Origin: an uncultured Methylococcaceae bacterium
GTDB taxonomy: Bacteria > Pseudomonadota > Gammaproteobacteria > Methylococcales > Methylomonadaceae
DNA: 40,635 nucleotides
NCBI GenBank assembly: GCA_903945605.1
Contig: CAJAWH010000044.1
Location: 1-40,635 of the forward strand
Direction: 5' to 3'
Below the pieces are notes generated by a model that saw only the letters and a list, made by a program, of their open reading frames with translations, was not told where the DNA came from and did no database searches. Of the stretch, positions 28,927-32,152 are shown piece after piece (the first letter of the stretch is position 1; the number at the start of each line of letters is the position of its first letter). The position numbers were made by a program, and so were the translations under genes.

Positions 28927-29574
28927 TTACGATACGGTATCAAGCATGTGCTTATCAATATCACCAATCGCAATATTTTTATCCACCAACATCCTATCCC
29001 TCAGCTTTATGGCATAAATAATCAAAAACGAATCCAACAACATGCCTTTATTGAACGCCTCATTTTTCAGGTTATTCAATTCCGCTTCACTCATTAGCTG
29101 CTGAATGTTATCCCTGACCACCGCAAATGCCCCTTCCTGAATATCGTAGGCGGTTTTGGGCAATTTACGTTCCACCAGTGCCTGCAACACCGGATAAAGC
29201 CTATCAATAGTGGCATCGGCATCCACTTTAACGGCAATCTCAATGCCTTGGGGAGTAAGGGCAATAGGGCTTTGTGATTGGGCAAACGGATTGGGGCTTA
29301 GCTTTTGGAACACCAAATCCAGCTTGGTTTCCATTCGTATGATACGTTCGCCAAATTCCACCGCTTTGCCAATATTGGCTTCCATGGCAATCACTTTGTC
29401 ATTGGTCTCGCCCGCTTTTTGCAGCTTTTTATCATGCTCGCCATGCTTATACTGCCAAATGGCTATGGCTGCACTCAGTTTCCAGACCAGCCATATCACC
29501 ACGACCAACAGCACCAATAGCACGGCCACGCTGGCGTTAAGCTCTTTTAGCAGTTCTGAAAAAAACGGGTTCAT
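28927..29574 (-). CDS. Membrane-anchored coiled-coil protein of unknown function
   Basis: 215 residues. One N-terminal membrane helix (VAVLLVLLVVVIWLVWKLSA, about 16-36) is followed by a charged coiled-coil-like stretch (KHGEHDKKLQKAGETNDKVIA to METKLDLVFQKL) and a folded C-terminal part (YPVLQALVERKLP, IQQLMSEAELNNLKNEAFNKG). I recognise no family. It lies between the NlpE-like gene and the two GTPase genes on the same strand, 244 bases downstream of the GTPases. Whether it belongs with them is open. Confidence 0.6.
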   Translation of the reverse strand: MNPFFSELLKELNASVAVLLVLLVVVIWLVWKLSAAIAIWQYKHGEHDKKLQKAGETNDKVIAMEANIGKAVEFGERIIRMETKLDLVFQKLSPNPFAQSQSPIALTPQGIEIAVKVDADATIDRLYPVLQALVERKLPKTAYDIQEGAFAVVRDNIQQLMSEAELNNLKNEAFNKGMLLDSFLIIYAIKLRDRMLVDKNIAIGDIDKHMLDTVS

Positions 29575-29818: not shown

Positions 29819-30505
29819 TTAGTATATTTCTGAATTAGCGATATTTCGCCTTGTGATAGGGAAATGAGCAATAACATGGTCTATCAATGCGTCAACGTTA
29901 TACCCAAATTTAGCACTGTAATACACGGGTTTACTTATGCTTAATCCAGTTGATTCGTTAATGCGGTGTTTTACCGACCACGCCTTTTCCTCTAAAAAAT
30001 CAACCAAGATAGATTCTGGTTTATTTAGATGGGCATTCCAATTACGCCCTTTCATTGCCATATCTGCTTGATTGATCGCAACAATTACCCGTCTTGGTTC
30101 AATTGACTTTAATATTACTGAATCTAATAATTGAAAAGTTGTTCCTAAATCACGCGATCCCCCGTCAAGCAGAACCATCACCAAATCAATAAAATAGTAA
30201 TCGGTGTTACAAGTTCTCTGTAGCTCCTCTGTAATGTTCTTCGCGTGACAGTAGTCTTTTTCCTTGCCATCACCAAGTCCTGCCGAATCATGAAAGCGTA
30301 AAAAATCATGCAAAGAGTGAGCTGAAATGTGTTGCGTTTCTGGATCAACACCGTCCCCAACTTTAGCTGCGGTATAACCGAATAACGCGTTCAGCGTCGA
30401 ACTTTTACCAGTGCCAGTCCCGCCAACAAGTAAAATATCCAGCGGGGTTAACAAATTATTTCGGCTTATATGTGATTGAATATCATGGAATCTGTAGTTT
30501 TTCAT
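29819..30505 (-). CDS. Era/YfjP-like GTPase, short paralogue
   Basis: 228 residues, essentially a lone G domain. Walker A/G1 is GGTGTGKS (28-35), G3 is D73-S-A-G (with LGDG after it) and G4 is N145-Q-A-D148 (NQADMAMKGRNWN). It shares these segments and GGSRDLGTTF with the 347-residue neighbour, so the pair arose by duplication. It lacks the neighbour's C-terminal extension. The family includes prophage GTPases such as YfjP and YeeP in E. coli; the function is unknown. It starts 11 bases after the neighbour. The DNA is visibly AT-richer than the backbone, suggesting transfer. Confidence 0.75.
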   Translation of the reverse strand: MKNYRFHDIQSHISRNNLLTPLDILLVGGTGTGKSSTLNALFGYTAAKVGDGVDPETQHISAHSLHDFLRFHDSAGLGDGKEKDYCHAKNITEELQRTCNTDYYFIDLVMVLLDGGSRDLGTTFQLLDSVILKSIEPRRVIVAINQADMAMKGRNWNAHLNKPESILVDFLEEKAWSVKHRINESTGLSISKPVYYSAKFGYNVDALIDHVIAHFPITRRNIANSEIY

Positions 30506-30516
30506 GATAGATGGTT

Positions 30517-31560
30517 TTAATCAAAAATGCTGAAAATACTTTTAATTCCTCGACCAAATAAGCCTGCTAAACCACCAACAGCACCTCCGACAACATTACC
30601 CAATCCCTCTCCAACTCGTTTGCCGGGTTCACCGAAAAGAAATTCGCCGACACCACCAAAAACATCTTTACCAATGTCTGAACCCTTCGAAGCAGTTGAT
30701 CTAATGGCCTCCCATAATGTTTCTTGGATTTCCTGGCGGTAATTTTCTAATCTATCGTCATCCGCCCACATTGTTTTATCACGATTAATATCTTGGGCAA
30801 AAGCAGCTCGTTTTTCTTCTTTTGTATGCCGCAAAATAAAAAGTAGCAATTTAGATAAGTTGTAGGGATTTTGCGCTTGATCACCATCTTTGTAACCGGC
30901 GCAGTAATAAATTGGCTCAACATCCACTCTAGTGGCTTCTTTGATACGGCTTTGAGTTGATACAACTTTTTCGTCGAGAAATTTTATAAGCTCAGGTTCG
31001 GGGCGATTTTCTTTGTGATTCCAATTACGCCCTTTCATTGCCATATCTGCTTGATTGATCGCCACTAACAGCCGGTTTTTATCTTCACCAAGATTAGGAA
31101 TAATAACTTGATTAATTAACTCAAACGATGTGCCAAGATCACGGCTTCCTCCTTCAAGAATAACAAGAACTAAATCAATTAATAGGCTACCATTAGTATC
31201 GGTTTCATGGAGTTTGTCTATAATGTTTTTTGAGTGTTTAATGTCTGCGTCTTTGCCGTCACCGAGACCGGGTGTGTCGTACAGGACTATGTTATTAAAC
31301 TCAAATTTTTGAACATCCATTGTTTCTGGATTAACGCCTTGACCTACTTTAGCTTTTTCTGAATTGAAAAGCGCGTTAATGGTCGAGGATTTTCCGCAAC
31401 CAGTAGCTCCTGTAATCAATATGTTGACTTTGGTTTTTTTGAGTTTGTGCAGATTATGTACGACGCGAGCTTTGGCATCATCGCTCAGCGTGTTGTCACG
31501 TTCAATTTCGTCAGCCAATTCATCAGCAAAATGTTTTTCGTTCACAAAAGCCTCATTCAT
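30517..31560 (-). CDS. Era/YfjP-like GTPase, long paralogue with Gly-rich tail
   Basis: 347 residues: a short helical lead (1-44), a G domain with G1 GATGCGKS (51-58), G3 D95-T-P-G and G4 N169-Q-A-D172, then a helical region (AAFAQDINRDKTMWADDD). The tail is Gly-rich and hydrophobic (VGEGLGNVVGGAVGGLAGLF, ending in KSIFSIFD), like a glycine-zipper membrane-inserting segment. It is first of a two-gene operon, divergent from an XRE regulator 193 bases away. Whether it acts in membrane remodelling, ribosome binding or defence is unknown. Codon and base use differ from neighbouring housekeeping genes. Confidence 0.78.
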   Translation of the reverse strand: MNEAFVNEKHFADELADEIERDNTLSDDAKARVVHNLHKLKKTKVNILITGATGCGKSSTINALFNSEKAKVGQGVNPETMDVQKFEFNNIVLYDTPGLGDGKDADIKHSKNIIDKLHETDTNGSLLIDLVLVILEGGSRDLGTSFELINQVIIPNLGEDKNRLLVAINQADMAMKGRNWNHKENRPEPELIKFLDEKVVSTQSRIKEATRVDVEPIYYCAGYKDGDQAQNPYNLSKLLLFILRHTKEEKRAAFAQDINRDKTMWADDDRLENYRQEIQETLWEAIRSTASKGSDIGKDVFGGVGEFLFGEPGKRVGEGLGNVVGGAVGGLAGLFGRGIKSIFSIFD

Positions 31561-31753: not shown

Positions 31754-32152
31754 ATGAAAATACAGGAAAAAATACGACTGATGCGGGAAGCCCACCAATG
31801 GTCGCAGGAAGAAATGGCCATGAAGCTGAACATGTCCACCAACGGTTATGCCAAAATTGAACGCGGCGAAACCAAGGCGTATATTCCTAAACTGGAACAA
31901 ATCGCCGAAACCTTAGGCATGGATTTTATGGAACTGATGTCTTTTGGTGAAAAACAGGTTTTATGTTTGATCGGGGAAAATAACAGCAATAACGGCTGTA
32001 ATATTATCGGATCATCACAGGAACTGGCGGCGGAAATACAAAACCTGAAAGCAGCCGTTAGCCACAAAGATGAAATTATCGAGCATCAAAAACGCGAAAT
32101 AGCCTACTTGCAAGAGCTGCTGGCTGTGCTGAAAACGGCGCAACAAGGGTAG
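31754..32152 (+). CDS. XRE-family HTH regulator with C-terminal coiled coil
   Basis: 132 residues. Residues about 5-60 form an XRE helix-turn-helix: IRLMREAHQWSQEEMAMKLN, then MSTNGYAKIERGETKAYIPK and LEQIAETLGM. The C-terminal part (LAAEIQNLKAAVSHKDEIIE, KREIAYLQELLAVL) is a coiled coil, probably for dimerisation. It is transcribed away from the GTPase operon and its own promoter carries palindromic operator-like sites. Its regulon is not known. Confidence 0.9.
   Translation: MKIQEKIRLMREAHQWSQEEMAMKLNMSTNGYAKIERGETKAYIPKLEQIAETLGMDFMELMSFGEKQVLCLIGENNSNNGCNIIGSSQELAAEIQNLKAAVSHKDEIIEHQKREIAYLQELLAVLKTAQQG

Follow-up and report, generated by a model that had tools for sequence, protein, structure and literature searches.

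Animals are well known to use membrane-acting GTPases of the IRG and GIMAP families for cell-autonomous immunity, and bacterial relatives exist for several of their immune proteins. Tandem bacterial dynamins and G domains of the type described below are also already known. Among the GIMAP proteins, tail-less GIMAP7 stimulates GTP hydrolysis by the membrane-anchored GIMAP2 (PMC8201404), and septins, TOC and GIMAP proteins (paraseptins; PMC11238149) have arginine fingers that act across the G interface. Among the IRG proteins, Irgm3 keeps Irga6 GDP-bound and Irga6 pairs trans-activate each other (PMC3042988). In bacteria, the tandem GTPases of LeoABC are thought to pair across their G domains (PMC4159319).

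Here we describe two adjacent genes, A and B, coding for a pair of GTPases in a 40,635-nucleotide stretch of DNA from an uncultured Methylococcaceae bacterium (the window, meaning the whole stretch analysed). No paper on this pair was found among the open-licence literature searched, and we regard it as an uncatalogued candidate defence family present in at least three phyla. The explanation that we favour, with a probability of about 0.5 for the whole of it, is a horizontally spread two-GTPase module of the paraseptin type, most likely directed against phages or mobile elements, in which B would control a membrane-acting A.

The closest parallel in overall design is GIMAP2 with GIMAP7, where, as in A and B, one member has a membrane tail and the other has none. 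The GIMAP/AIG1 family matches in G-domain profile and fold and, like A and B, carries an Arg that follows the strand between G3 and G4, but identity in the model matches is ~15-19%, the AIG1 match covers G1-G3 only, and A and B differ from it by their NQAD G4 and by being a bacterial gene pair. The IRG proteins (Irga6, Irgb10) are the nearest sequence-profile relatives of A and share with it the helices before the G domain, although the match is confined to G1-G3 and A appears to have a short Gly-zipper tail in place of the IRG C-terminal helical domain. B finds its best fold and profile match in Toc34/Toc33 (which work with Toc159), known G-domain dimers; identity is 16%, and B is without a membrane anchor, bacterial and mobile. 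LeoABC and other tandem bacterial dynamins are likewise tandem bacterial GTPases with a G-domain profile match, and a Leo-like cluster is even found near one of the pairs (in Photobacterium), but A and B are without dynamin stalk, neck or GED and A has 347 aa against ~560 for LeoA. YfjP, from the E. coli CP4-57 prophage, and related plasmid GTPases gave a profile-profile match of 98% probability and also reside on islands or plasmids; YfjP is a more distant relative, since it is solo, has SQSD as its G4 and is ~31% identical over 141 columns. Small ColE-like E. coli plasmids (L142 387-2778) carry a distant GTPase of the A/B kind near an EcsC-family protein. Finally, the PHROG family phrog_16468, which is not functionally described, matches A over its full length (1.4e-73).

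The two GTPases and their relatives

Genes A and B lie in the same direction on the minus strand, A then B, with 11 bp between them. Their features are the following:

30517-31560, minus strand: gene A, GTPase of 347 aa with a Gly-zipper C-terminal tail (ORF, Pfam, PHROG, family alignment)
31387-31410, minus strand: G1/P-loop core of A, residues 51-58 (G51, T53, G54, G56, K57 and S58 invariant in 16 A proteins)
31267-31278, minus strand: G3 of A (DTPG), residues 95-98 (D95, P97 and G98 invariant in the A alignment)
31141-31143, minus strand: Arg140 of GGSRDLG in A, candidate arginine finger (R or K at this position of the A alignment; putative catalytic role, by position)
31045-31056, minus strand: G4 of A (NQAD), residues 169-172 (N169, Q170 and D172 invariant in the A alignment)
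30520-30684, minus strand: Gly-zipper tail of A, residues 293-347 (GxxxG repeats and a G-rich end in most A proteins, none in B proteins)
29819-30505, minus strand: gene B, tail-less GTPase paralogue of 228 aa (ORF, PF01926 at 2.6e-7, family alignment, AlphaFold2 pLDDT 81)
30401-30424, minus strand: G1/P-loop core of B, residues 28-35 (G28, T30, G31, G33, K34 and S35 invariant in 14 B proteins)
30278-30289, minus strand: G3 of B (DSAG), residues 73-76 (D73 and G76 invariant in the B alignment)
30152-30154, minus strand: Arg118 of GGSRDLG in B, candidate arginine finger (nearly invariant in B proteins; putative catalytic role, by position)
30062-30073, minus strand: G4 of B (NQAD), residues 145-148 (N145, Q146 and D148 invariant in the B alignment)

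The two proteins share 45% identity over 211 residues (E 1e-54) and both have G1 (GATGCGKSST in A, GGTGTGKSST in B), G3, the segment GGSRDLG and NQADMAMKGRNW. Family alignments of 16 A and 14 B proteins showed that the motifs of both G domains are kept across phyla. B is a bare G domain, while A has additional helices ahead of it and a Gly-rich tail behind. B stops within a few residues of the G-domain end in 14 of 14 pairs and A runs 45-95 residues further. Most A tails have Gly-zipper repeats, with a terminal aromatic patch such as FGW; the Rodentibacter A protein is without the Gly-zipper. With a best hydropathy of 1.24 over 19 residues, the tail of A does not clearly qualify as a transmembrane helix. 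The original prediction of two adjacent GTPases with G1, G3, an NQAD G4 and GGSRDLG in common, only one of them ending in a Gly-rich tail, was confirmed on both counts.

MMR_HSR1 (PF01926) was the best Pfam match of both proteins and above the cut-off for each (2.6e-10 for A, 2.6e-7 for B), and G1, G3, the N-x-x-D G4 and the fold place them among the TRAFAC/Era-type P-loop GTPases. With AIG1 (PF04548), A scored 30.7 bits (cut-off 27) along positions 2-86 of the 212-position profile (G1-G3 only), and B fell below the cut-off. IIGP (PF05049) scored 29.9 bits on A against a cut-off of 24, over residues 30-101 only and ending at profile position 98 of 375. NCBIfam gave no match above the cut-off for A or B, the scores of the Era, EngA and EngB models being far below theirs, and PADLOC 2.0.0 gave no match to the pair beyond a partial one to the G domain. 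In a profile search of solved structures IRG proteins came first for A (1.4e-9), and Toc34 for B (6e-8), followed by EngA, IRG, septin and GIMAP.

The AlphaFold2 models had a pLDDT of 81 for B and 73 for A, with a low-confidence tail in the latter. The fold closest to the B model was Toc34/Toc33 (Z 16.9 over 209 residues, 3.7 Å), and Era/EngB gave Z 15-16. For A, Irga6 led the list (Z 16.4 over 246 residues, 6.9 Å) with many G domains within 1-2 units, so that the fold of A alone does not decide its relative. The Irga6 VIA ranges reach into the low-confidence A tail at 5-7 Å rmsd. The IRG-like character proposed in the original prediction is supported at the level of sequence profiles and fold. 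Its other suggestion, a dynamin-like system, did not hold: there is no stalk or GED, neither A nor B matched the Pfam dynamin family (PF00350), and the G domain is followed by nothing in B and by those 45-95 residues in A, so the dynamin superfamily was rejected. The PADLOC matches to LeoA/LeoBC cover ~70-110 residues of profiles that are 559-601 long, and the full-length LeoA/LeoBC profiles were not matched. In the explanation that we favour, A and B would belong to the septin/GIMAP/Toc34/IRG-like ("paraseptin") GTPases.

In a tree of 41 proteins, 13 of the 14 B proteins formed one clade with support 100/100. Only the Vibrio B protein, on a very long branch, fell outside it, and monophyly of B was not rejected (p-AU 0.41). 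The distance matrices of A and B from 12 pairs were correlated (r 0.65, Mantel p 1e-4), a relation that may come partly from host relatedness. A and B are old, separate and co-diverging partners.

Foreign DNA and distribution of the pair

The DNA of A and B has a GC content of 0.40, against 0.50 for the window, and GC3 is 0.30 in A and 0.34 in B, against 0.56 +/- 0.05 in the other window genes. Taking 17 other window genes as reference for codon usage, the codon likelihoods of A and B were 8.2 and 8.6 SD below expectation. The predicted low-GC island was thus borne out (codon usage ~8 SD off), and as neither GC nor codon statistics equal those of the backbone, the reading as transferred DNA stands. 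One neighbour needs separate consideration:

31754-32152, plus strand: divergent XRE-family gene, outside the transferred unit (native codon usage, orthologues beside other genes)

This gene had normal codon usage in the same test (z -0.9), and so had the RmuC gene. Its orthologues in two sister genomes (78-82% identity) adjoin unrelated genes and bring with them ~80 bp of the same upstream DNA. An XRE regulator had been predicted as part of the module; the divergent gene is real, but it lies outside the foreign segment, and its inclusion in the transferred unit was rejected because of its native codon usage and its orthologues elsewhere in the genus. In general, a regulatory link between XRE genes and A is possible by position, with divergent XRE genes adjoining A in Rodentibacter and in the Pasteurellaceae loci that have A only. 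The window XRE gene comes from a multicopy family of the genus, with 27 matches spread over 13 of 20 genomes; its members are often single genes with a coiled-coil-like end.

Also adjoining the pair is a gene for a 215-aa protein (28927-29574) with an N-terminal membrane-like stretch and native codon usage, without matches in Pfam, NCBIfam or PADLOC. A clean empty site could not be demonstrated in the sister genomes compared, as even the nearest of them has not kept the flanking synteny. As to mobile-element signatures, the boundaries held no informative repeats, and the left intergenic DNA matched one other place in the genome, weakly and over a short length.

The A-B pair occurs once in the source genome and was not found in 60 relatives from the same genus, family and order. 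Within the class, A was present in 2 of 369 genomes, in both as part of the pair. Plasmid-borne pairs were found in Comamonas, Acinetobacter, Photobacterium and Vibrio, and pairs on chromosomes or contigs in Limnohabitans, Rodentibacter, Neisseria, Clostridium, Lachnospira, other Clostridia and a Bacteroidales MAG. Altogether 34 loci were tallied, most of them found with A as query: at 19 of them B comes after A on the same strand (in two of these B is broken or both genes are degraded), at 13 A stands alone, 2 are cut off by a contig edge, and B alone occurs at none. Furthermore, a B profile search found no orphan B in 398 genomes of the phylum, and no A-B fusion was seen at the loci inspected. 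Despite the PHROG match, GenBank phage records and IMG/VR held no near relative at the sensitivity used, and the Rodentibacter pair had no E. coli homologue at the DNA level. The conservation of the pair in Proteobacteria, Clostridia and Bacteroidales and on plasmids, together with its foreign codon usage and absence from relatives, supports the transferred two-component module of the original prediction. A-B is a two-gene module that has spread horizontally as a unit between very different bacteria.

Two of these locations deserve mention. In Clostridium tarantellae (L010 7621-10287) serine recombinases are followed downstream by three consecutive GTPases, A-B-A'. In Neisseria (L125, L129) the pair directly adjoins rplC/rplD in the S10 ribosomal operon, where an acquired module is unusual.

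The Neisseria location, the closeness of the B model to Era/EngB and the best Pfam match of both proteins, MMR_HSR1, whose name is "50S ribosome-binding GTPase", could be taken to indicate ribosome-associated or translation GTPases of the Era/EngB kind. We consider this highly improbable. Such a sparse and mobile distribution does not fit a ribosome factor, A and B have no RNA-binding domain, the Era, EngA and EngB models of NCBIfam score far below their cut-offs, and the profiles rank IRG and Toc34 first.

Since 13 loci have A without B, B is not needed in every branch, and A is tolerated alone in those branches. This bears on another explanation, that the pair is a toxin with its restrainer, an addiction or abortive-infection unit in which the A tail would be a toxic pore-former or membrane disruptor and B would hold A in the GDP-bound state, like Irgm. 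The restriction of the tail to A, the mobile two-gene arrangement on plasmids and the Irgm3 precedent are all consistent with it. Apart from the A-only loci, what speaks against it is the P-loop of B, which is intact, unlike that of the GMS-type Irgm proteins, and the gene order, with A first here whereas toxin genes usually follow or overlap their restrainer. On balance we find it unlikely.

Genomic neighbourhoods

Several relatives of the pair have defence genes around them. The Vibrio pair is within a type I restriction operon, beside a PD-(D/E)XK nuclease, and the Photobacterium pair adjoins csm6, cas1 and cas2 in addition to the Leo-like dynamin cluster. In genome G1105 (L152 1114-8000) a degraded pair, with stops or frame breaks in A and B, lies beside Csm6-like ring nuclease, Cmr1-like and Cmr2-like genes; from the translated sequence, this neighbour reads like a type III-B CRISPR locus. 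The pair of G116 has C5 methyltransferases nearby, and an A-only locus of Proteus has methyltransferase, helicase, GIY-YIG and restriction endonuclease genes. No adjacent or obvious defence genes accompany the pair in the source window, in Neisseria or at the majority of its clostridial loci. At 1e-15, 134 neighbour proteins matched 222 PADLOC families, against 25 matched by 134 control proteins drawn from ten of the same genomes, a contrast that is exaggerated by model redundancy and by the lack of plasmid controls for the plasmid loci, and that we therefore take as moderate support.

WYL regulators adjoin A at five A-only loci, and one was also found by tblastn upstream of the Limnohabitans pair. 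Regulators of this type are described in one source as co-localising with phage-defence systems (PMC9122601). Two Pasteurellaceae genomes have more elaborate operons: in G936 (L120 7034-11463) the order is XRE, WYL, a small protein, the GTPase, JukA (DUF3944; PADLOC 6.5e-62) and a conserved hypothetical protein, and in G967 (L121 7305-11708) it is XRE, WYL, an A-like GTPase, JukA in two different frames and a conserved hypothetical protein. The A-like GTPases of both are without the Gly-zipper. In the Juk system JukA acts as the sensor, recognising proteins of the early jumbo-phage vesicle (PMC13282480), and these operons are possibly a Juk-linked GTPase system.

Serine recombinases, transposases and integrases were also found near several loci. 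With four pairs and one A-only locus on plasmids, they might point to a service for plasmids or integrative elements, such as entry exclusion, remodelling of the mating bridge or envelope, or maintenance, instead of defence. The chromosomal copies of Limnohabitans, Lachnospira and Neisseria have no element genes nearby, there is no constant association with transfer genes, and WYL and JukA beside the A-only cousins point to defence, all of which make a role of this kind quite unlikely in our opinion. A defence role for A-B is plausible but indirect, based on the neighbourhoods and on the association of the A-only cousins with JukA and WYL, and we rate the chances that the pair serves in defence or conflict as somewhat better than even.

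A possible mode of action

By analogy, the best reading of how the pair might work is that of GIMAP2 and GIMAP7. A would be the effector end, its Gly-zipper tail inserting into a membrane or oligomerising on it. B would be the tail-less partner G domain, pairing with A as a heterodimer across the bound nucleotides; we propose this because of the GIMAP7/GIMAP2, paraseptin and Irgm3 precedents and of the conserved R/K of GGSRDLG, which by its position appears to be where an arginine finger is expected. Each partner would offer this Arg to the other, and B would thereby set the timing of GTP hydrolysis by A and of its assembly and disassembly. An infection cue would presumably shift the balance between A and B, after which A would assemble on the membrane and damage or remodel it, with phage resistance as the probable outcome.

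If this is true, bacteria would have a compact, mobile two-gene counterpart of animal GTPase immunity that is open to testing, with one GTPase as the effector and a tail-less one as its partner. A bolder version, which we hold to be doubtful, is that of a bacterial equivalent of IRG/GIMAP immunity in which the GTPases would assemble on membranes that derive from the pathogen or lie at the site of infection, their GTP switch being set by a tail-less partner, with JukA being the sensor in the A-only branch and B the regulator in the paired one. Through the JukA link of the A-only branch, the idea that GTPases act on membranes made by phages can be tested directly.

Regarding the relationship between both genes in the window, A and B have a segment in common over VAINQADMAMKGRNW (within 29985-30091 and 30968-31074) that is identical at 41 of 42 nt, against 32-35 of 42 in the other pairs. 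At the sequence level this near-identity looks like a recent local gene conversion between A and B.
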